A stretch of DNA of 64,000 nucleotides from Evansella clarkii (GTDB lineage Bacteria > Bacillota > Bacilli > Bacillales > Salisediminibacteriaceae). A program made the translations under genes and the position numbers. Location of the stretch: contig NZ_KV917376.1 in NCBI RefSeq assembly GCF_002019695.1, positions 1,993,380 through 2,057,379 of the forward strand, given 5' to 3'. Below are positions 39,740 through 50,956 of the stretch, piece by piece; within the stretch, counting starts at the first letter, position 1; every line of letters starts with the position of its first letter. The notes beneath the pieces were generated by a model, which ran no database searches, was not told the origin of the DNA, and worked only from the letters and a program-made list of their open reading frames with translations.

Positions 39740-40003
39740 ACTGAGCTCCGCCTTTCGATACTTTTGCTTATGGAAAATAAGTTTCCTTAAGTAAACTTAT
39801 TTGTTGTATTATATACAATAAAATTACTTTTGTACCAATATTCAATTCTTCTCTATAAAACAATCTTTTGTTACAGAAAAATACAGGGTACAGTATGTGC
39901 TTGTTCAGGAAATGTGCTGATTTGTTGATGGTTGTATATACGTTCGACACCACAAAATACGAGAGATTATAAAATGCTTTTTGCTTTTTGTTAAATAAAA
40001 ATA

Positions 40004-40055
40004 TTGCATTTATTTTTGAATTAAACTACAATACAAATCGTAATAGTTACGATTT
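40004..40055 (+). promoter_or_regulatory. Promoter with Zur box
   Basis: TTGCAT (40004-40009) and TACAAT (40027-40032) have a 17-base spacer. Directly downstream, 40035-40055 is a perfect palindrome, AAATCGTAA-TAG-TTACGATTT, equal to the Bacillus Zur operator. Zinc-bound Zur should repress the oxidoreductase-GTPase operon. Confidence 0.93.
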
Positions 40056-40076
40056 AAGTAGCAAGGGGGAATTAAT

Positions 40077-41243
40077 TTGTTCGACTGGGTAATTATTGGG
40101 GGCGGGATACATGGCTGTACAGTAGCAAATTTTCTACTGAAGAACGGTAAAACAACGAGAGAGAAGCTGTTAATTATTGACCCGCATCCGGAACCAATGT
40201 ACGAATGGAGGAGAAACACAGAGAAAATAGGTATGGAGTTTCTACGTTCTCCTTCAGTCCACCACATTGATGTGGATCCTATGAGTCTCCATAACTACTC
40301 ATCACAATTAAAAGAGGAGAGAGGTTTTTACGGGCAGTATGACAGGCCCTCTCTGGATTTGTTTAACGAACACTGCAGCAAGGTTATTGAAAGTCAGGAA
40401 ATTTTAGAGTCTTGGCATACCGGTACAGTGGGGCAGGTAACGAAACTTGAAAATATATGGCTTATTCAAACAGAAGCAGGCAGGGAGATTTTATCCAGAA
40501 ATATAGTTATTGCTGTGAGCATTAACAGGCAGCTTTCGATTCCAGACTGGGCGGAACAATTTTATAGGGAAAAGAAAAATATGTACCATGTGTTTGAAGA
40601 AAGACTGGGAAAACTGGAGGATATTAAATTGCCTGCAGTGGTAATAGGCGGAGGAATAACCGCAGCTCACTCAGCTATTAAGCTTGCCGGACTGTTTCCC
40701 GGAGAGGTTACTTTGGTTAAAAGACATCCGTTCAGAGTGCACTCTTTTGATAGTGACCCTGGCTGGCTTGGGCCAAAGAAATTATCCTGTTATTCAAAGA
40801 TTGAGGATTACGATAAGCGCCGTGCATTAATTCAGAATGCCAGAAATAAAGGATCTATTCCGCGAGAGCTCTTCTGTAACATCAAACGGCTGACAAAAAA
40901 CAATAAACTGGCTGTAAGAGACGGGGAGGCAGTGCTTGCAGAAGAGAAAGCAGATAAAATAGTGCTCCATTTTAAAACCGGAGATGCGATAAAAGCAGGT
41001 ACAGTTATACTTGCTACTGGATTTAATCCTTCTCTCCCGGACAGAGGGTGGCTGCGTCAACTAATAAATGAGCAGCAGTTAAAATGCGCGAATTGTGGAT
41101 ATCCAATCGTAAAAAAGTCATTGGAATGGTGTGATCATTTATATGTGTCCGGTCCGCTGGCAGAACTGGAGATTGGGCCTGTGTCGAGAAATATAGCCGG
41201 TGCAAGAAAAGCTGCAGAAAGGATTGCAGCCAGTATAATCTAA
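40077..41243 (+). CDS. FAD/NAD(P)-binding oxidoreductase, Zur-regulated
   Basis: This 388-residue flavoprotein-like enzyme has an N-terminal Rossmann motif (IIGGGIHGC, residues 6-14), a second dinucleotide motif (VVIGGGITAAHSA, about 187-199), and a C-terminal ATGFNPS segment. A CANCG element near residue 340 could bind metal. The substrate is unknown. It starts at TTG 40077 after AAGGGGG. It lies under a Zur box and 24 bases before a COG0523 GTPase, so a role in zinc-limited growth is inferred. Confidence 0.8.
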   Translation: MFDWVIIGGGIHGCTVANFLLKNGKTTREKLLIIDPHPEPMYEWRRNTEKIGMEFLRSPSVHHIDVDPMSLHNYSSQLKEERGFYGQYDRPSLDLFNEHCSKVIESQEILESWHTGTVGQVTKLENIWLIQTEAGREILSRNIVIAVSINRQLSIPDWAEQFYREKKNMYHVFEERLGKLEDIKLPAVVIGGGITAAHSAIKLAGLFPGEVTLVKRHPFRVHSFDSDPGWLGPKKLSCYSKIEDYDKRRALIQNARNKGSIPRELFCNIKRLTKNNKLAVRDGEAVLAEEKADKIVLHFKTGDAIKAGTVILATGFNPSLPDRGWLRQLINEQQLKCANCGYPIVKKSLEWCDHLYVSGPLAELEIGPVSRNIAGARKAAERIAASII

Positions 41244-41266
41244 AAGAAATTTAAGGAGTTTTTAAT

Positions 41267-42451
41267 ATGGAAAACAGAGTGCCAGTAACAGTATTAAGCG
41301 GCTATTTAGGATCTGGTAAAACAACATTGCTTAACCATATACTCGCTAATAAAGAGAACAGGAAAGTTGCGGTAATTGTAAATGACATGAGTGAAATAAA
41401 TATAGATGCCTCAATGATAAAACAAGGTGGTTTTACCCGGACAGATGAAAAGCTGGTTGAACTGCAAAACGGATGTATCTGCTGTACCCTAAGAGAAGAC
41501 TTGATTCAGGAAGTGGAAAGGCTCGTACATTCTGGAAATATTGATTATATTGTCATTGAATCTACTGGGATTTCAGAACCTGTGCCTGTAGCCCAGTCAT
41601 TTACATATATCGATGAAGAGCTTGGAATTAATCTTCCTGAATTGTGCCGTCTAGACACAATGGTAACAGTCGTGGATGCTAACCGATTCTGGGAGGATTA
41701 TGCCTCCGGCGAATCACTGCTGGATCGTAAAGAGGCGAATGACGAAACTGATCAAAGAGAAGTTGTAGACCTGCTTATTGACCAGATTGAATTCGCAAAT
41801 GTTCTTATTCTGAACAAGACAGATTTAGTCGGGGCAGATGATGTGAAGGAGCTTAAAGCAGTACTGAGAAAATTTAATGCAGAGGCCTTAATCCTGGAAA
41901 GCAGCTTTTCTGAAATACCACTTGAAAAAATTATGGACACAAACCTGTTAGATTTTGAGAAATCGAGCCAGTCAGCTGGCTGGATTAAGGAATTAAATGA
42001 AGAACATATACCTGAAACAGATGAATACGGAATCAGTTCGTTTGTGTACAGAAGAAAGAGACCGTTTCACCCGGAAAGGTGGATGCAATGGCTGGAAGAC
42101 TGGCCCCGTGATGTTGTAAGAGCAAAAGGTTTTTTCTGGCTTGCCAGCCGGAATGACATGGCGGGCCTTCTTTCCCAGGCAGGATCTTCATTAACAATCC
42201 AGGCAGCTGGCGAGTGGGTTGCAGCGTATCCTGAAGAGGAAAGGGAACAGACATTAAGAGCAGAGCCGGAGCTCCTGGAAAAATGGGATCCAGTGTATGG
42301 TGACCGGACAACAGAGCTTGTAATGATCGGAATAGATATGAACGAGAAGGAAGTAGAAGCATCGCTTGATAAATGCCTTTTAACAGATGAAGAAATGGCT
42401 GAAAACTGGTCTGGTTTAAAAGATCCTCTGCCTGCTTTTACACATAGCTGA
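41267..42451 (+). CDS. COG0523 metallochaperone GTPase (YciC/ZagA-like)
   Basis: This 394-residue G3E-family GTPase has Walker A GYLGSGKT (residues 12-19), the metal-binding CICC at 70-73, and an ESTGISEP switch. The NKTD guanine motif (LNKTDLVG) and a C-terminal CobW domain follow. Zur-regulated members deliver zinc to key enzymes during zinc starvation (B. subtilis ZagA/YciC). It is the second gene of the Zur-boxed operon, followed by a strong terminator. Confidence 0.92.
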
Positions 42452-42456
42452 AAAGA

Positions 42457-42496
42457 AAAGAACTCCTGAGGTGTCCTCCACCCTCAGGAGTTCTTT
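42457..42496. terminator. Convergent terminator
   Basis: AAAGAACTCCTGAGG (42457-42471) pairs perfectly with CCTCAGGAGTTCTTT (42482-42496). It can serve both the GTPase gene and the converging His-rich gene. Confidence 0.9.
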
Positions 42497-42501
42497 ATTA
42501 A

Positions 42502-42843
42502 TTACTGCACTTTAACAATTTCCACCGGACCGTGGTCATCACAATGATCACCATGGGGATGATGCAGCCGGCCGTTTACCAGATAGTCGTAATGGTCGCC
42601 GTGTGGAACAAGTTCATGACCACAGTCTTCCTCATGATTACATCCGCAAGCTACAGGCTGGCATTCATCAGGATTTTCCCCGTTTACGGGAAGCGCGCAT
42701 TCTTTCCATTCACCATTACTTTCATGATGAAGGTGGCCATCGTGAACATAATCAATGTGGTCGTCATGCCTGATTTTCGTGTGTCCGCATGCAATACTGT
42801 GCTGATGCTCGTGCTCTTCATGTGTGTGTCCTTTACTGCCCAT
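42502..42843 (-). CDS. His-rich metal-binding protein with two internal repeats
   Basis: This 113-residue soluble protein is rich in His, Asp and Cys. It contains two copies of one unit: CGHTKIRHDDHIDYVHDGHLHH, described here by its key residues C-G-H, H-D-D-H, Y and GHLHH (about residues 19-40), and the related CGHELVPHGDHYDY with GRLHH (about 73-95). A CGCNHEEDC segment lies between them. The pattern implies zinc or related metal binding. No enzyme motif is seen. It converges on the COG0523 GTPase, so it may be a zinc store or donor. Confidence 0.75.
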   Translation of the reverse strand: MGSKGHTHEEHEHQHSIACGHTKIRHDDHIDYVHDGHLHHESNGEWKECALPVNGENPDECQPVACGCNHEEDCGHELVPHGDHYDYLVNGRLHHPHGDHCDDHGPVEIVKVQ

Positions 42844-43017
42844 ATTAAATCCCTCCCAGAGGTACTTTAGTTTATTATTCCTTTTTCATTAAGAGTTAAA
42901 CCAGCTTGGGGCATTTACTACATTGTGCAGTTGACTGAATAATCAAATATAATATATGTTATAAAAAACGGAAGGACCAATAATAAGGGGTCAATGAATG
43001 ACGAAGGGAGGAATACG

Positions 43018-43431
43018 GTGCGAACAAAAAAACTTACGGTTGGATCGCTAAAGGATAGAAAACCTGAAAAAAATATGACAGGCGCTTCTAACGACACAGT
43101 AGCTGCCGTTAAGCAGCAGGAAAATTATTCTGCGAAAAGCATCAAGGGAATAGTTAAAACAGAGCCGAAAACAATAACTTTTACCCAAAACAATAAGGTA
43201 TATACAATTTCGGCTTCCGAAGCTAATCATACTCTTCTGGATGCTGCTTTAAAGCTTAATAAACCAGTCAATTTTAAATGCAGAGCAGGGACGTGCGGAA
43301 AATGCGCGGTGAAGATAATTAAAGGAGAACATTGCCTGGCAGGTAAGACAGACCAGGAAAAAGAAACACTAAAGAAGAAAAAGATCCCTGGCTTCCGGCT
43401 GGCATGCCAGTCTGTAGTAGAATGCAACTAA
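43018..43431 (+). CDS. [2Fe-2S] ferredoxin with N-terminal encapsulin-targeting peptide
   Basis: This 137-residue protein has a C-terminal plant-type ferredoxin domain: C88, C93, C96 (CRAGTCGKC) and C130. An N-terminal extension of about 45 residues begins MRTKKLTVGSLKDRK. KLTVGSLK is the same motif that ends the IMEF cargo protein (RLTVGSLKNI), so the ferredoxin should be packaged in the encapsulin shell. In known IMEF systems such a ferredoxin is thought to help mobilise stored iron. GTG 43018 with GGGAGGA is preferred; ATG 42994 with AAGGGG would add eight residues. Confidence 0.9.
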   Translation: MRTKKLTVGSLKDRKPEKNMTGASNDTVAAVKQQENYSAKSIKGIVKTEPKTITFTQNNKVYTISASEANHTLLDAALKLNKPVNFKCRAGTCGKCAVKIIKGEHCLAGKTDQEKETLKKKKIPGFRLACQSVVECN

Positions 43432-43490
43432 CTTATTTATAATTAATATAAACCGATTGTGACAAACGTTTGAATTTACAGAAAACAGTA

Positions 43491-43554
43491 TTGACGAACC
43501 TTTCTGCATACTTTATGATGAGAATGGATATCAATGATAATGAAAATTATTCTC
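43491..43554 (+). promoter_or_regulatory. Promoter with Fur box
   Basis: TTGACG (43491-43496) and TATGAT (43514-43519) have a 17-base spacer. GATAATGAAAATTATTCTC (43536-43554) matches 16 of 19 positions of the Fur consensus and covers the likely transcription start. The downstream gene should be iron-repressed. Confidence 0.85.
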
Positions 43555-43573
43555 ATTGTATGGAGGGGTGTAA

Positions 43574-44050
43574 ATGAGTTATTTTATCAACGGCTACAAA
43601 GATTTTTATACTGTAATTGAAAACGAGAGAAAAATCGGTGGAGTTATAGAGGCTGAAGAAGTACAGCTTAAAAACGGTGAGATTTATAAAAACCCTGTTT
43701 TTACAAATATTGATTACTCAGGCGGAATTTTTTATACTGCCGCTATTGTCGCCAATGATGGCTCACATATTATCGTCCATGTGAATGACATAAGCATGAT
43801 TAAATCACCAGCACACAAAAAAATTAAAGATATGAAAAACCACTACTTTAAAGAAATAAAAATAAAAGAAAAAATGCGTTACTTAAAATGCCTTGCAAAA
43901 GGAGACCAAGGAGCTTTCACGAAACCTTTTGTAGAAGAAGCGAAACTTATTATTGAAGACATCGGCAGCGATGTGCTGATTAACGAAAAACAGGAATTAA
44001 GCTATGAGTTTATGACGATGTTCAATAATGAAGTGGTGAAAATAGCTTAA
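43574..44050 (+). CDS. Unrecognised Fur-boxed protein inside the encapsulin locus
   Basis: This 158-residue soluble protein belongs to no family I recognise. It seems to have an N-terminal beta-rich part (about 1-75, with the VIVANDGSHIIVHVND-like strands) and a Lys-rich helical C-terminal part (HKKIKDMKNHYFKEIKIKEKM). There are no signal peptide, membrane span, Cys cluster or cargo tag. GGAGGGGTG precedes the ATG. It has its own promoter and Fur box, lies between the ferredoxin and the shell gene, and shares a terminator with the shell gene. A role in iron handling with the nanocompartment is inferred from place and control only. Confidence 0.8.
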   Translation: MSYFINGYKDFYTVIENERKIGGVIEAEEVQLKNGEIYKNPVFTNIDYSGGIFYTAAIVANDGSHIIVHVNDISMIKSPAHKKIKDMKNHYFKEIKIKEKMRYLKCLAKGDQGAFTKPFVEEAKLIIEDIGSDVLINEKQELSYEFMTMFNNEVVKIA

Positions 44051-44056
44051 AACAAA

Positions 44057-44084
44057 ATCCCCTTTTGAATTTTCAAAAGGGGAT
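44057..44084. terminator. Convergent terminator
   Basis: ATCCCCTTTTGAA (44057-44069) pairs with TCAAAAGGGGAT (44073-44084). T-rich sequence on either side lets it stop both the plus-strand Fur-boxed gene and the minus-strand encapsulin message. Confidence 0.9.
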
Positions 44085-44098
44085 AAGTTTTGGCCCGA

Positions 44099-44950
44099 TT
44101 AATTATGTTCAGGGTTCTCTAAAGTACAAATCGCACTTGGGCGTTTAACCCTTGGGACGATACATTCGTAAATCCTGAATAAATGATTCATATTTTCAAC
44201 GTCCATATAAGCGGAGTCCATGTCTTCAGCGATGACCAGGTCTAGGTTATGGCGGCCTGTAGCTATCAGTAACCCTGAGTTTTCTTTCAGGACTGGAGAC
44301 TGGAACACCCCATCGGTAACTAATTCCCGGACATGCTCGATTTCCAGTACGTTCGTCCCTTCATGAACACGGTGAAGAAGAGCGTAGAGGTCTGGTGAAA
44401 GCACTAAAGCGTAAGGCCCGTTATGTCCCATCTGCAAAAGCTTGTTGCGGGCATCCACAATGTCTTTAAAAGCGTTGCCGGATTTAAGCCAATCAGACCT
44501 TACGTGAGTTAAATGGCCTTTAACATTAGACAGCCCTGGAATATTAAATTCCTCCGAGCCGTTAAAAATCAGGTCATCTTCCAGCAGGGAGCACTGAGTA
44601 ACTGCATTTGCTGCCTGGGAGAAATCAATTGGTATATCCAGTGTTCTTGCCTGTTCAATATCACGCCAGAAAAGCTGGAAGTCTTTATAAAGCAGGGGAA
44701 TTGTCAAATGAACTCTTTTAGTGGAGTCTGAGGTGTCCAGTTCTTCCCCATGAAGGCTGAGGCTTCCCTGTTCGGATTCTTCGTATATATCATTTATTAC
44801 TGATTGCACGCCTTGTCCAAGAGGACCGTATATATCAATAAACCGGCGCCCAATCAGATTGCGTCGGGCATTTTCAACTACTGTCTCATCAAGCATCTGC
44901 CATTCTTTGTTTGTAAGTGGGGAATCGTGGAATTTTTGAACTTTGTCCAT
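44099..44950 (-). CDS. Encapsulin shell protein (family 1, HK97 fold)
   Basis: This 283-residue protein self-assembles into an icosahedral protein compartment. It matches the family 1 encapsulin pattern: the N-terminal helix (PLTNKEWQMLDETVVENARRNL) that binds cargo peptides, GRRFIDIYGPLGQGVQ, the E-loop region around GEELDTSDSTKRVHLTIPLL, FRDIEQAR (here WRDIEQARTLDIPIDFS), and the C-terminal A domain ending CTLENPEHN. It lies 11 bases after the IMEF cargo gene, with AGGAGGT before the ATG. In the IMEF relatives the shell is large (T=4). Confidence 0.95.
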   Translation of the reverse strand: MDKVQKFHDSPLTNKEWQMLDETVVENARRNLIGRRFIDIYGPLGQGVQSVINDIYEESEQGSLSLHGEELDTSDSTKRVHLTIPLLYKDFQLFWRDIEQARTLDIPIDFSQAANAVTQCSLLEDDLIFNGSEEFNIPGLSNVKGHLTHVRSDWLKSGNAFKDIVDARNKLLQMGHNGPYALVLSPDLYALLHRVHEGTNVLEIEHVRELVTDGVFQSPVLKENSGLLIATGRHNLDLVIAEDMDSAYMDVENMNHLFRIYECIVPRVKRPSAICTLENPEHN

Positions 44951-44961
44951 TATATTACCTC

Positions 44962-45579
44962 CTAAATATTTTTCAGGCTTCCGACTGTGAGTCTCTTTGC
45001 AGGTTTACTGCTGCTGGAAACAGCAGCTTCCTTTTGGTGTTTTTCTGGATGAGCTCCGGAAGCTGAAGAAGTATATTTTTCAATTTTCAGATGTTCAGCA
45101 ACATCTTCTTTTTCATCTGTAGGTACAGAGCCGGCGGCAGCAGCAGCTCCATCAAATTCTTCGTTTAAAGTATTTAAGATAGGTTTTATCGACTGGTAAT
45201 CGTCAGCGGTAATGTTCCTCATGCGGGTGAGGTTTTCCGCGTGTTCAGTTTCTTTAAAAGAAAATAATGCTAAATCCAGATGCTCCAGGAAGTTATGCAG
45301 CCCGAATTTTTCAAGACTTATATCCTGAAGTAAGCGGACAAATTCCAGGTTATCGGCGGATCTTGCCCCGTCATTATCAATATAGAAATCGAGCTTTGGA
45401 ATTAAAGCATTCAGACGGTCGAGCCGCTGTTCTTCTTCTTCGTAAATATGATGGTAATAAAGCCGTTCATGGTCGTCTTTTGCATTTTCGATCCTGGGGG
45501 TGAGGATTGCCATAAAATCATTTATCGCTTCCCTTGTTCTGATAAACATATCTTTTAAATCAGAAAAGTGTGCAGCCAC
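44962..45579 (-). CDS. Iron-mineralising encapsulin cargo protein (IMEF)
   Basis: This 205-residue cargo has a helical N-terminal domain (about 1-145) rich in Glu and His (ERLYYHHIYEEEEQR, HAENLTRMRN) that could form a ferritin-like diiron ferroxidase. A flexible Ala/Ser/Lys-rich linker (about 145-193) follows, then the C-terminal targeting peptide RLTVGSLKNI. Family knowledge: IMEF proteins oxidise ferrous iron inside a Firmicute encapsulin to store it. It starts at GTG 45579 after AAAGGAAGTGAT and is the first gene of the cargo-shell operon. Confidence 0.93.
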   Translation of the reverse strand: MAAHFSDLKDMFIRTREAINDFMAILTPRIENAKDDHERLYYHHIYEEEEQRLDRLNALIPKLDFYIDNDGARSADNLEFVRLLQDISLEKFGLHNFLEHLDLALFSFKETEHAENLTRMRNITADDYQSIKPILNTLNEEFDGAAAAAGSVPTDEKEDVAEHLKIEKYTSSASGAHPEKHQKEAAVSSSSKPAKRLTVGSLKNI

Positions 45580-45746
45580 TGAATCACTTCCTTTACTGGA
45601 TTATTTAGTATTTTTTTATAGTTTAACGTACCTTAAGAAAAATTAAAAATGATATGGCAATATTCCGAAAAACTTAAAGATATCAAAAAGTCGTTCAATA
45701 TTTGTTCACAATAATAGTTTTATAATAAATATGTTTAGAAATCTCA

Positions 45747-45809
45747 TTGACAATGATTCTCAATCAATTTATACTAGGTATTGTTGATGAGGTTGATAAT
45801 CATTATCAA
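45747..45809 (+). promoter_or_regulatory. Promoter with two Fur boxes
   Basis: TTGACA (45747-45752) and TATACT (45770-45775) have a 17-base spacer. The spacer itself (GACAATGATTCTCAATCAA) is a weak Fur-like box. TTGATAAT-C-ATTATCAA (45793-45809) is a perfect 17-base Fur palindrome just after the start. The region 45580-45746 is shared with the divergent IMEF-encapsulin operon. Confidence 0.9.
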
Positions 45810-45860
45810 TTAAACCCCATCTACATAATACAAATGAACTTAACAGGGGGACGACATAAG

Positions 45861-47018
45861 ATGAAGAAGGCAATAAAATCTTTATTATTTGGATCACTTA
45901 CTTTAGCAGTTATAACAGCAGCAGGATGCGGTACTGATGACGGAAATGGCAACAACGATAATGCAGCTGGCGGTAATGACTCGCAGAACGAAAATGCAGG
46001 CAATAACGAGAATGAAGAGAACACAGAAAATGAAGCCGCAGTGGAATTAGACGGCCAACTTGTAGTATACTCATCACGTAATGAAAACTTTGTCGATCCT
46101 TTGCTTCAGAAATTTGAAGAGGAAACTGGGATAGAAGTAATGGCGCTCCATGGGGCAGACCCACTCCAGCTTGAAGAAGAAGCAGGAAACGTACAGGCGG
46201 ATATCTTTATTTCCAACGACCTGGGAGCATTAGGATATTTGGATAACCAAGGCTTGTTAGCTGGATCTGAACCGGAAGGAATCGAGACAATTCCTGCAGA
46301 ATTTCGCGCTGATGACAACGCTTACTTCGCAATCTCAGCAAGATCTCGTGGCTTTATCTACAATAAAGACTTAATTTCTGAAGATGAAATGCCTACAAGC
46401 ATAGAAGACTTATTTGATGAAAAGTGGGCAGATGTTGAAAATGGTTATGCGATTACCCGTGGAGGAAATGGCGGTATGCTTGGAAACGTTTCTGCACTCC
46501 GTTATGAGTGGGGGGACGACAAGACAGCTGAGTGGGTTGCTTCCATTAGAGAAAACTCAGCTGGTATATATGAAGGACATGGAGATATCCGCAGAGCAGT
46601 AGGTGCTGGCGAGCATTCATTCGGACTTGTAAATAACTATTACTACCATCAGCAGTTACTTGAGCCAACTGACAACAATGTGGGCTTTATCTACCTGGAT
46701 CAAGGGGAAGACGAAATGGGAGTAATCGCTAATGCTGCAGGTGTAGGACTTGTTGAAGGAGCTCCAAATGAAGAAAATGCACACGCGTTTCTTGAGTGGG
46801 TACTCAAGCCTGAAAACCAGGTGGCATTCGTTGGAGAATCACTTGAGCTTCTTATCAACTCTGAATATGGGGCAGAATATCCTGAAGAAGTTGAGCCGCA
46901 TGTAGTTGAATTTGATGAGCTTAAAGTACAGGACATGCCTTTAAAAGAGCTTGGAAACTACTTTGAGGGAACGAAAGAATTAATCGAAGCATCTGGTTTA
47001 GACCTTGATTTAAAATAA
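45861..47018 (+). CDS. Iron(III) ABC transporter substrate-binding lipoprotein
   Basis: This 385-residue lipoprotein has a signal peptide with a lipobox (VITAAGC, cysteine at about 21). A low-complexity Asn/Glu/Asp linker follows, then a FutA/FbpA-type ferric-binding domain (LVVYSSRNENFVDPLL, tyrosine-rich NNYYYHQQLL). It should capture ferric iron outside the membrane. ATG 45861 follows CAGGGGG; the open frame upstream lies in the Fur-controlled leader. The permease gene follows 31 bases downstream. Confidence 0.92.
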   Translation: MKKAIKSLLFGSLTLAVITAAGCGTDDGNGNNDNAAGGNDSQNENAGNNENEENTENEAAVELDGQLVVYSSRNENFVDPLLQKFEEETGIEVMALHGADPLQLEEEAGNVQADIFISNDLGALGYLDNQGLLAGSEPEGIETIPAEFRADDNAYFAISARSRGFIYNKDLISEDEMPTSIEDLFDEKWADVENGYAITRGGNGGMLGNVSALRYEWGDDKTAEWVASIRENSAGIYEGHGDIRRAVGAGEHSFGLVNNYYYHQQLLEPTDNNVGFIYLDQGEDEMGVIANAAGVGLVEGAPNEENAHAFLEWVLKPENQVAFVGESLELLINSEYGAEYPEEVEPHVVEFDELKVQDMPLKELGNYFEGTKELIEASGLDLDLK

Positions 47019-47049
47019 ATAAAAAAGCAGTTCACCGGGAGAGGGCATA

Positions 47050-48741
47050 ATGGACAGTCGGAACAAGAGGGATACGGAATCTTCACAACAGAATAATAAC
47101 AACAATGCCGAGGTTGGGGAAAAAACTTCCCCAGCCATTCTCCATTTTTTCAGAAGCAGCTGGTTCAAAATCTGGAACGGCAACCCGCCTGGGCCGATAT
47201 TATTGTTATTTGGGCTAGTGGTCGCACTAATAATGTCTGTGCCGATTATATACGTTATCTGGCGCTCTGTTTTTGCCGGAGCTGACAGATGGATGCGTCT
47301 GCTGGATGAAAGAATTCCTCAGTTATTATGGAATACCTTTTCCCTTACATTTGCAGTAACCGTATGTGCGGTGATTCTTGGTGTATCCCTTGCATGGATT
47401 GTGGTCCGTACGAATATTCCAGGAAGAAGATGGTGGCAGTGGCTGTTAGCACTCCCGTTGGTTATTCCGCCGTATGTCGGAGCTGTGACATATATTATTG
47501 TATTCGGACCAAGCGGCTGGGCAAGGGATATTTGGCGGGATACAGCCTGGCTGGCAAACATTGGGGATTACCCATTGAATATATATTCTTTTTGGGGCGT
47601 CTTCTTTGTTTTAACAATGTTTACATACCCGTATGTTTTTCTGATAGCAAGTGCCTCACTCCGAAAAATGAACAGAAATTATGAGGAAGTGGCCCGTTCT
47701 CAGGGGCTTACAGTTTCACAGGTATTCTGGAAGGTAAATCTTCCATTTCTCCGGCCTGCTATTGGTGCGGGGGCCATTCTTGTTTCTCTCTATGTATTAT
47801 CCGATTTTGGAGCTATCGCAATGCTCCGGTATGTGACATTTACGGCGGCGATTTATTTTCAGCGTGCTGGCTTTGATACGGCTGCAGCCTCTGTCTTAAG
47901 CTTAGTGCTAATTTTACTTACGATTATCATTCTATGGATTGAGGCAAGAACCAGAAAGAAAAGCAAATATTATCAGACAGCAAATACATTCAGGCAGCCT
48001 GATATACTTCCTTTGGGGAAATGGAGGGTTTTAACTGTAATATATGTCAGCCTGGTATTTTTCCTGTCGGTTATTCTTCCTATAAGCGTCCTCATTTACT
48101 GGTCTTATATAGGGATAGGCATGGGAGCAATTGATGAACGTTTCTTCGGCTTTGCATGGAACAGTCTGCAGGTCTCAGGTTTTGCCGCAATTTTATGTAT
48201 GCTTCTGGCACTGCCGATTATCTACCTGAAATCCAGATATCCTTCGGTGGTTTCAACTCTTATTGACCGCCTGAGTTATGCTGGATATGCGCTGCCAGGT
48301 GTTATCGTTGCACTTGGGATGGTATTTATTTTTAATAATCATATCCCTGTACTCTATAATACTTTCTATATGGTAGCTCTTGCGTTTGTTGTTCGGTTTC
48401 TTCCTCAGGCGATGCAGGCTGGTGAAGCTTCCTTAAGCCTTGTTTCCCCAAGGATTGACGAAGCGGCGAGGAGCCTTGGCTATCCGCCCTGGAAAGTGAT
48501 GCTGAAGGTAATCCTGCCTAGTATTCTTCCAGGTGTGCTTGCCGGTGGAGCGCTTGTGTTTGTGAGCTCTATAAAAGAACTTCCGGCAACGCTTATGCTC
48601 CGGCCTCCAGGCTTTGATACGCTTGCTGTCAGGGTATACTTTGAAGCTTCAGAGGCTCTTTATCACCTTGCGGCTCCGTCTGCTTTACTGATCATTCTCG
48701 TCTCTTGTATACCTTTACGTTATTTGCTTAAAAAATATTAA
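47050..48741 (+). CDS. Iron ABC transporter permease (fused double permease, FbpB-like)
   Basis: This 563-residue inner-membrane protein holds two homologous permease halves of about six spans each. Both contain the EAA loop: EEVARSQGLTVSQVFWKVNLP (about 215) and DEAARSLGYPPWKVMLKVILP (about 475), named by their EEVARSQG and DEAARSLG cores. This is the ferric-iron type. No ATPase gene follows in this strand, so the ATP-binding subunit must be encoded elsewhere. Confidence 0.93.
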   Translation: MDSRNKRDTESSQQNNNNNAEVGEKTSPAILHFFRSSWFKIWNGNPPGPILLLFGLVVALIMSVPIIYVIWRSVFAGADRWMRLLDERIPQLLWNTFSLTFAVTVCAVILGVSLAWIVVRTNIPGRRWWQWLLALPLVIPPYVGAVTYIIVFGPSGWARDIWRDTAWLANIGDYPLNIYSFWGVFFVLTMFTYPYVFLIASASLRKMNRNYEEVARSQGLTVSQVFWKVNLPFLRPAIGAGAILVSLYVLSDFGAIAMLRYVTFTAAIYFQRAGFDTAAASVLSLVLILLTIIILWIEARTRKKSKYYQTANTFRQPDILPLGKWRVLTVIYVSLVFFLSVILPISVLIYWSYIGIGMGAIDERFFGFAWNSLQVSGFAAILCMLLALPIIYLKSRYPSVVSTLIDRLSYAGYALPGVIVALGMVFIFNNHIPVLYNTFYMVALAFVVRFLPQAMQAGEASLSLVSPRIDEAARSLGYPPWKVMLKVILPSILPGVLAGGALVFVSSIKELPATLMLRPPGFDTLAVRVYFEASEALYHLAAPSALLIILVSCIPLRYLLKKY

Positions 48742-48860
48742 AGAAAATTCGCCGATTGGCGATGAGAGGGGCGTAGTTGTACGTAGACTTTAGCCTTTAA
48801 ATTTTCACTACGTTGTAATCAACTTCACAGCAAAAATTTTATACTTAAAGTGTAAATAAA

Positions 48861-48902
48861 AAAGGAGGGTGCGAAAGACTAGCTTTTGCACCCTCCTTTA
48901 TT
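48861..48902. terminator. Convergent terminator after the permease
   Basis: AAAGGAGGGTGC (48861-48872) pairs with GCACCCTCCTTT (48887-48898), with A/T-rich flanks on both sides. Confidence 0.88.
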
Positions 48903-48917
48903 TTGAACTAAATTTAC

Positions 48918-49883
48918 TTATCTGTTAAAGCTGGGATACACATATGGTGTATCTGGCTCTTCCACTTCGGTTATATAGCTGTCCTCAATAACTGGGAGCG
49001 TATAGTCTCCATATTCCCCTTTTCTGATAGTACCATTCACGTATACCCATGTATCTTCCTCAAACTGATTAGCTTCTTCAGATTCCACAAGAGTGCCGTA
49101 TACACCAGCATCGGCAGTACAGCATGTCATAGAGAAGCGGGCGGCAACGAGTTGATGATCTTCAAAGTCAGGTTCCCTGAAAACAAAGCCAATCATTTCT
49201 ATTTCTTTGCCAACAAAACGGTCAAGATAAAGGTCGAGTACTGTCATCACATCGAGATAATTATCTTCCGTAACTAAAATAACCTCACTTTGTTCCAGTT
49301 CATCGGCAAACTCTTTGTAAAATTCATCAAACCAGTCTTCCCCGTAAAAATCTTCTACCTGGTAATGCTCCTGAGCATCTACAGCTGCGGATGCCTGGAC
49401 TTCCAGATTATTAATATATCCTTCAGGATCTTCTAGAAAAGCTTCCGCTCTTGAAGTGGCCCCTGAATTTTCATCGGGGGAAACCTGATTAATAGTCAGG
49501 TCAGAACCGTAATTTATGCCCCTGTTTGCAGCTACCGAACTATTAAGCATCTGGTCAGGGATAATAAAGCCAAATAAAACAGGAAGAATAAAAATACTGT
49601 ATACCAATCCCTTCAACCAGAAAGGGCCTTTTATTTCGTGGTCATGATCGCAATGACCACTGCACACATGCTCTTCAGTGCTTTCTTTTTTCGTACTGCG
49701 AAAAACCTGCATAATGCCTAAAATAAAGAAAGTAGTCATTGCAAAATAGATAAACGGCATCATCTTCGGAGCGATATAATACACAATGTTTCCGGATAAT
49801 ATGAGGCTTAGCATCAGAAGAGCAAAGCCAAGGAGTATAATTCCTTTAAGAAAAGCATGGAATGCGTGATCGTAATGTTTCAT
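48918..49883 (-). CDS. YcgQ-like membrane protein (DUF1980/TIGR03943)
   Basis: This 321-residue protein has about four N-terminal membrane spans (about 12-60 and 85-110) joined by a His/Cys-rich loop (HVCSGHCDHDHE). An extracytoplasmic C-terminal domain contains the conserved MTCCTADA motif (about residue 250) and a DTWVYVNGTI strand region. The family is always paired with a UPF0718 permease, as here 23 bases downstream of that gene. The function is not established; metal transport or delivery is inferred from His/Cys motifs and context. Confidence 0.85.
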   Translation of the reverse strand: MKHYDHAFHAFLKGIILLGFALLMLSLILSGNIVYYIAPKMMPFIYFAMTTFFILGIMQVFRSTKKESTEEHVCSGHCDHDHEIKGPFWLKGLVYSIFILPVLFGFIIPDQMLNSSVAANRGINYGSDLTINQVSPDENSGATSRAEAFLEDPEGYINNLEVQASAAVDAQEHYQVEDFYGEDWFDEFYKEFADELEQSEVILVTEDNYLDVMTVLDLYLDRFVGKEIEMIGFVFREPDFEDHQLVAARFSMTCCTADAGVYGTLVESEEANQFEEDTWVYVNGTIRKGEYGDYTLPVIEDSYITEVEEPDTPYVYPSFNR

Positions 49884-49906
49884 AATCTATATTTTCCCCC
49901 TTACTA

Positions 49907-50956
49907 CTATAAAATTACGCCAAATAACAGCATTACTGCTGTAAAGACTATGAGAGTCACTGTAATCATGAATGTAATAACAAACCTGGCTTTAAAGAAA
50001 GCAAACAGCATGAATGTGTTTTTCAGGTCAAGCATCGGGCCGTATACAAGAAAAGCCGTAAGGGACATATCTGTAAACTGGTTTCCGAACGAAGATGCCA
50101 CAAAGGCGTCTGCTTCTGAACAAAGAGATAATAAGTAAGCAAAAGCCATCATTACTATCGTCGAGGAATACATATTTGTACCGACGGCTTCCAGCACAGA
50201 CCTGTCGAGAAACGTCTGAAATAAGGCAGCGACAAAAGCACCAAGAATTAAATATTTCCCCATCATAAAAAATTCATCTACCGCATGGTAAAAAGTATTT
50301 CTTACCTGCCCGAAAAAGCCAGTTTTTTCTGGAGGTTGATGATGGTGGCTGTGGCTGGCCGCTGGAGCAGTTACATCGTTTCTCAGCTGGTTCGGTCTAT
50401 TTTTGAAGATGGTATAAAGAATAAAACCTATTAGTATGGAGAGAACAAACGCAAGTCCCATTCTTGAATACAAAATTATATTTGTGGGCTGGCCGCTGAA
50501 AGCAAAGTAGGTCGATGCAGCCACTACTGGATTTAAAATTGGCGCTCCTACCATAAAGACAACGCCTACATGAAGCGGCATCCCCTTTTTTATGAGCCGT
50601 CGTACAACAGGGACAATCGCGCATTCGCAAAGGGGGAGAATCGCACCCAGCATCGCAGCGGGAAACAAGGCAGCTATAGCATTCTTAGGCAGAAACCGCT
50701 GAATAGTATCTTCAGAGACGTAAATTTGAATCAGTGAAGATATAAACACTCCAAGCAGTATAAAAGGAATTGCCTCAATAACTATACTAAGAAAGATCGT
50801 ATTAACATTTATGATGGAGTCCGGGAGATTATTCAGGCGTTCACTATCGTTTAGGCGGTCGTTCATCATAAAGAGAAGCAGGAAAACGAGGAGAAGGCCG
50901 ATACCCAGTATATCTTTTCCGAATGATCTCCAAGCGGAAGATTTCATATTTTGCAT
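49907..50956 (-). CDS. YcgR-like permease (UPF0718)
   Basis: This 349-residue integral membrane protein has about eight spans. It carries repeated glycine/proline signatures typical of the UPF0718 permeases (AAMLGAILPLCECAIVPVVRRL and YLLSLCSEADAFVASSF, noted by their cysteines in PLCEC and LCSEAD), and a cytoplasmic His-rich loop (SHSHHHQPPE). ATG 50956 follows AGGAGAT; upstream frame to 51052 is unlikely. It is first in the operon with the YcgQ-like gene. Relatives include arsenical permeases, but the substrate here is unknown. Confidence 0.85.
   Translation of the reverse strand: MQNMKSSAWRSFGKDILGIGLLLVFLLLFMMNDRLNDSERLNNLPDSIINVNTIFLSIVIEAIPFILLGVFISSLIQIYVSEDTIQRFLPKNAIAALFPAAMLGAILPLCECAIVPVVRRLIKKGMPLHVGVVFMVGAPILNPVVAASTYFAFSGQPTNIILYSRMGLAFVLSILIGFILYTIFKNRPNQLRNDVTAPAASHSHHHQPPEKTGFFGQVRNTFYHAVDEFFMMGKYLILGAFVAALFQTFLDRSVLEAVGTNMYSSTIVMMAFAYLLSLCSEADAFVASSFGNQFTDMSLTAFLVYGPMLDLKNTFMLFAFFKARFVITFMITVTLIVFTAVMLLFGVIL

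Follow-up and report, generated by a model that had tools for sequence, protein, structure and literature searches.

orf158, a probable iron-starvation-induced companion of the IMEF encapsulin locus in Evansella clarkii

Organization of the encapsulin locus

The window analyzed here, a stretch of 64,000 nucleotides from the genome of Evansella clarkii, contains an IMEF-type encapsulin locus in which genes for a ferritin-like cargo, a shell protein and a ferredoxin are accompanied by a fourth gene, orf158. The features of the locus, in window coordinates, are as follows.

44962..45579, minus strand: IMEF cargo (ferritin-like ferroxidase), GTG start; TIGR04536, PF24309, PDB 6n63
44971..44991, minus strand: stretch coding for LTVGSLK, the C-terminal targeting peptide of the cargo; exact site of the tag pattern in the genome
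44099..44950, minus strand: family 1 encapsulin shell protein; NF041155, PDB 6nj8
44057..44084: hairpin of 12 pairs lying between orf158 and the shell gene, which converge here; terminator-like on the minus strand
43574..44050, plus strand: orf158, a 158-residue protein without a named family; present in 78/80 IMEF loci; AlphaFold2 (AF2) model
43541..43555, plus strand: Fur-box-like site TGAAAATTATTCTCA, 12/14, 18 nucleotides (nt) 5' of the orf158 ATG
43491..43519, plus strand: promoter-like TTGACG-17-TATGAT, 5' of orf158; 10/12, consensus match only
43033..43053, plus strand: stretch coding for LTVGSLK, the targeting peptide of the ferredoxin; second exact site of the tag pattern in the genome
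43018..43431, plus strand: [2Fe-2S] ferredoxin (Fer2 type) with an N-terminal targeting peptide; PF00111

The original prediction had named a shell, a tagged cargo and a tagged ferredoxin, and all three open reading frames are intact at the coordinates it gave. Its IMEF-type assignment is upheld by profile and PDB-sequence searches, in which both shell and cargo fall with their IMEF counterparts of Quasibacillus thermotolerans. The cargo matches NCBIfam TIGR04536 (IMEF ferritin-like cargo) with 252.9 bits (cut-off 100) over profile positions 3-194 of 194 and Pfam PF24309 IMEF_Flp with 197.5 bits (cut-off 27), and its closest solved structure by sequence is 6n63 (E 2.2e-41). The shell matches NF041155 (family 1 encapsulin) with 296.9 bits (cut-off 100), and 6nj8, the T=4 shell of Q. 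thermotolerans, is top among 37 PDB sequences (E 1.2e-121); the profile comparison with the Q. thermotolerans pair suggested alongside the prediction thus returned 6nj8 and 6n63 as the top structures. A phage capsid origin of the shell is ruled out, the best Pfam phage capsid match being 0.0072, under cut-off, against 1.2e-73 for encapsulin. The ferredoxin matches PF00111 Fer2 at 9.4e-14 (Pfam).

The cargo gene comes first and the shell gene follows 11 nt later, both on the minus strand, forming a predicted operon. The ferredoxin gene, some 0.7 kb past the shell stop, has the opposite (plus) orientation and is therefore outside the cargo-shell operon. The claim of a complete locus in good frame held for the three reading frames but passed over orf158, a near-constant companion in the IMEF loci examined.

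A degenerate DNA pattern for the tag occurs with zero mismatches at two places in the 5.48 Mb genome, the tail of the cargo and the head of the ferredoxin, and the reversed pattern gave 0 exact matches. The GTG start of the ferredoxin at 43018 is plausible, with a ribosome-binding site seen by eye upstream and the tag beginning at residue 6, near the start as in most related ferredoxins. For comparison we surveyed 80 IMEF loci, the best 80 of 88, in which some genomes are represented by more than one locus (L044 and L046; L070 and L073; L120 and L122). The tag ends 79 of the 80 related cargos and stands N-terminally on 71/71 related ferredoxins. These ferredoxins (L043-L122) are basic, with a median isoelectric point (pI) of 9.5 (n=71), against acidic values of 5.1 for the shell and 5.3 for the cargo; the basic charge could aid attraction to the negatively charged shell.

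Encapsulin shell family matches fall at one place in the whole genome, and PF00210 matches at four. NCBIfam places two of these four as Dps-like, under curated cut-offs, and one as manganese-catalase-like; the fourth is a weak match (L006) that stays unplaced, and none of the four matches a ferritin or bacterioferritin model at E 0.01, which fits the suggestion that the encapsulin serves instead of ferritin.

In these respects the locus resembles the Q. thermotolerans IMEF system as given in the available text of PMC6668986 (structures 6nj8 and 6n63), with its shell, its cargo, a C-terminal targeting peptide and an N-terminally tagged ferredoxin, in a genome with Dps-like proteins and no recognized ferritin. 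The same text counts 71 IMEF operons in Firmicutes, 70% of them with a ferredoxin, mostly with Dps and without ferritin (PMC6668986), and ferredoxins with N-terminal TVGSL-type motifs co-purify with the shell according to the accessible parts of PMC8346489 and PMC11202242. Judged from sequence, the three-gene part is this published system, and so it is not new. The locus of Bacillus thermotolerans SGZ-8 (L088) also carries orf158; the placement of the ferredoxin gene differs, being directly 3' of the shell gene there and on the opposite strand in the window. We take this strain to be the same species as Q. thermotolerans after renaming.

Distribution and features of orf158

When the window proteins were sought in the 80 IMEF loci, the shell was found in 79, orf158 in 78 and the ferredoxin in 71. 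The loci free of orf158 are L118, in which the cargo is broken and the shell was not found, and L072. Query-free clustering of ATG-started open reading frames of at least 80 residues from the 80 loci recovered the same families as the most recurrent (shell 79, cargo 77, orf158 76, ferredoxin 57), with the next family at 21. Pairwise distances across 70 loci correlated between orf158 and shell (r 0.959) and between orf158 and cargo (r 0.971) as they did between shell and cargo (0.958), with 0.72-0.78 for the ferredoxin.

The same tie is seen at the level of genomes. Within the genus, orf158 occurs in three of nine genomes, the very three with an IMEF cargo. Across 397 genomes of the order, the cargo was found in 35 (31 above the model cut-off) and orf158 in 34, all inside those 35; none of the remaining 362 genomes, without IMEF cargo, carries it. 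In the 35th cargo-positive genome, G399, the cargo match spans just 62 residues, and both a shell match and orf158 are lacking. Counted by genus, 23/135 in the order sample are positive for cargo and 23/135 for orf158. Among 368 genomes of the class, the cargo was found in 46 (43 above cut-off) and orf158 in 47, covering all 46; in the additional genome, G419, the shell adjoins orf158 and the tagged cargo is diverged (custom profile E 0.00037, tail LSVGSL). Co-occurrence gives a Fisher value of 1.9e-48, in samples of order and class that partly overlap and among relatives that are not independent.

No orf158 was found in twelve genomes of the order that have an encapsulin-profile match without an IMEF cargo. 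Eleven of these matches are weak (34-72 bits), possibly other encapsulins or phage-like capsids, and the one in G184 is strong. The G184 shell (L152) is 51% identical to that of the window and has a multicopper oxidase gene alongside, by eye; IMEF cargo, ferredoxin and orf158 were all absent near it.

In all 78 surveyed loci with the gene, orf158 is convergent. This orientation is broken in G419, G470, G546, G555 and G525, and strict convergence was accordingly dropped as a functional feature. Overall, orf158 is kept through convergent, divergent, tandem and kilobases-distant arrangements, and in G529 it lies on another contig than the cargo. Three loci, L197, L198 and L199 (G419, G470 and G546), have IMEF-type shells and strongly diverged or short cargos, with orf158 divergent from the cargo; the cargos of L197 and L198 are tagged, and the orf158 frame of L199 runs to 305 codons and overlaps the cargo frame.

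The protein itself belongs to no family in Pfam, NCBIfam or PADLOC, where the window's orf158 gave merely weak matches below cut-off. A family search over 65 members (64 of the 78 and the window's) returned scattered matches only, each in one or two members. Profile matches to designed repeat proteins in the PDB (best 1e-07) were judged compositional; they span some 27-34 residues in the helical half, and no single stretch passes by itself. The AF2 model predicts a small barrel and two helices (mean pLDDT 87.8). Conservation centers on one near-invariant histidine and otherwise chiefly on G, N, R, K, E, D and L. No tag-like motif occurs among the 78 orf158 proteins, which rules out orf158 as a canonical tagged cargo. 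The last residue is alanine in 76/78, with a tail of variable length, compared with 6.2% of 626 control open reading frames.

Searches of plasmids, viral contigs, PADLOC and PHROGs, which did not extend to the phage collection, gave no hint that orf158 is carried by plasmids or phages. Plasmids gave no match, viral contigs no confirmed match (one peptide pattern only), and PADLOC nothing for the window's protein. PHROGs gave scattered weak matches (best 0.00044) to eight families, each in at most 2 of the 65 members.

A Fur-box-like site upstream of orf158

Sites were sought within 150 nt upstream of gene starts using a Fur-box consensus, TGATAATNATTATCA, and scored out of 14; shuffles preserve dinucleotides approximately. 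A site of at least 12/14 precedes orf158 in 72/78 loci (0.7% in shuffles) and one of at least 11/14 in 77/78 (6% in shuffles). At the threshold of 12/14, sites were found before the cargo gene, and so before the storage operon, in 3/80 loci, and before control starts (other long open reading frames of the same loci) in 14/511. After orf158 was thinned by ungapped identity to below 80%, 39/44 retained a site of at least 12/14. A word count free of any motif found TGATAATG before orf158 in 18/44, with at most 6 in shuffles; before the cargo gene it found nothing clearly over shuffles save words resembling ribosome-binding sites. Rfam models returned nothing at gathering scores over window positions 40000-50000.

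Genome searches supplied 41 further loci, possibly overlapping in species (L205, at a contig end, was left out), and here a site of at least 12/14 precedes orf158 in 34 and one of at least 11/14 in 39. In the tandem arrangement of G555 and G525, a terminator-like hairpin with a T run separates orf158 from the cargo gene (by eye), and a site of 13/14 precedes orf158; separate control thus seems to be kept. The 64 kb window has three sites with at most two mismatches, where 0.50 are expected: one before orf158 and two before a neighbouring transporter gene.

Ferredoxin and orf158 genes diverge in 25 loci. Sites of at least 12/14 before the ferredoxin number 21/71, all in such divergent loci, so one site may serve both genes.

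Possible role of orf158 and neighbouring genes

Taken together, these data indicate that orf158 is very probably a dedicated component of the IMEF system that is induced by iron starvation. As the storage operon mostly lacks the site that its partner carries, the partner would be needed in iron shortage. Such timing suits two jobs, aiding the exit of iron or halting its entry, and orf158 may supply the control, missing so far, by which the iron store is emptied or closed. We favor release, since the proposed reductant, the tagged ferredoxin, has its upstream region in common with orf158 in about a third of loci (25).

In our tentative reading, to which we give slightly less than an even chance, the locus encodes a four-part IMEF encapsulin for iron storage, in which orf158 switches the store to iron release. 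In iron plenty, as demonstrated for Q. thermotolerans and expected here by homology, the cargo-shell operon would give a large shell, a T=4 particle of 42 nm in the IMEF system, with ferroxidase cargo that oxidizes and stores iron. In shortage, as the conserved site suggests, Fur would come off its site upstream of orf158, allowing the protein to be made. Lacking a targeting peptide, it probably acts from the cytosol, and may act on the shell or on the tagged ferredoxin. The compartment would then turn from storing to releasing iron, for example through docking or admission of the reducing system. The specific form of this proposal, in which orf158 is a Fur-controlled iron-starvation switch that opens the compartment or couples it to reduction so that iron can leave, we hold a little less firmly.

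A loose parallel, in working only, is offered by the Bfd release system, where a [2Fe-2S] protein is likewise proposed to reduce and free stored iron. The proteins differ: all 47 scanned IMEF ferredoxins (46 of 71 and the window's), selected for similarity to that of the window, so that other ferredoxin types elsewhere would escape, match PF00111 Fer2, and none is listed with a Bfd-type family. The Bfd-type family is also without a match among the 65 orf158 proteins. The label 'Bfd homologue' for IMEF ferredoxins may mislead.

Several observations weigh against the release proposal. L072 is the only exception with shell and cargo yet without orf158 in the sequence available. Nine of the 80 loci have no detected ferredoxin, and seven of these nine still have orf158, which makes orf158 independent of a linked ferredoxin. 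No cysteine is conserved at 80% or more in the orf158 family, its sequence points to no biochemical role, and the evidence holds no sign of a physical tie to shell or ferredoxin. As for regulation, no site of at least 11/14 precedes the orf158 of L197 or L200, and control by Fur is inferred from matches to the Fur-box consensus. PerR and Zur, regulators related to Fur, bind similar sites, so Fur is the presumed regulator.

The main rival to a release switch is a brake acting at low iron, in which orf158, as a protein of Sm-like fold, would prevent the cargo-shell mRNA from being translated, or else hinder loading or assembly of the shell, and so keep scarce iron out of the store. The predicted structure lends this some plausibility, sharing with Hfq/Sm-like proteins the arrangement of a first helix and a small barrel. 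However, orf158 differs from Hfq in an additional C-terminal helical half and a neutral pI, and homology to Hfq was rejected at the profile level, hhalign giving a probability of 0.2 with 22 Hfq sequences. The neutral charge and the lack of a conserved leader on the cargo-shell operon speak against such a brake, which we consider rather unlikely.

Less probable still is a role as a structural or assembly factor of the shell, be it chaperone, pore plug or surface decoration; control by Fur would then reflect general co-regulation with iron uptake. The distances of orf158 follow shell and cargo as tightly as these follow each other, partly explained by shared species history, and orf158 remains with the shell even beside a strongly diverged cargo. 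On the other hand, control opposite to that of the storage part is unexpected in a structural subunit, and E. coli with cargo and shell alone yields assembled, mineralizing shells in the available text of PMC6668986, so orf158 is unneeded for assembly or filling. That orf158 is a passenger gene travelling with the locus is highly improbable: it lies close by in most loci, so common descent yields some correlation, but the flanks are otherwise little alike (next family 21/80 loci), and the gene is retained in several arrangements and, in G529, on a separate contig from the cargo.

As the fourth part of a known system, orf158 appears to be undescribed. No mention of it was found in the available text of the literature searched, including PMC6668986, PMC8346489, PMC11202242 and PMC7762939, a scope that does not extend to the 2017 paper defining IMEF or to supplements, so that earlier notice is possible; the words 'hypothetical' and 'uncharacterized' are absent from the accessible main text of PMC6668986. 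It is also absent from the published reconstituted system, which that text describes as built of cargo and shell alone (PMC6668986). Being a near-perfect companion of the cargo, with a low-iron site mostly absent from the storage operon, orf158 is a specific candidate, easy to test, for controlling release or filling. The proposed switch, if true, would close the present gap in explaining how iron is recovered from encapsulins.

Two neighbouring regions deserve mention. Beside the cargo gene (window 45748-48741) lie putative iron-type ABC transporter genes, for a binding protein (45858-47018, Pfam) and a permease (47050-48741, by eye), preceded by two Fur-box-like sites, one of them a perfect 14/14. 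On the minus strand, 42502-42843 encodes a 113-residue protein without a family in Pfam or NCBIfam, in which His, Asp and Cys are highly abundant and the two halves resemble each other by eye; it looks like a metal-binding protein. It adjoins a gene for a ZigA-like zinc GTPase (41267-42451) and has a 100% identical counterpart in G005, a close relative.
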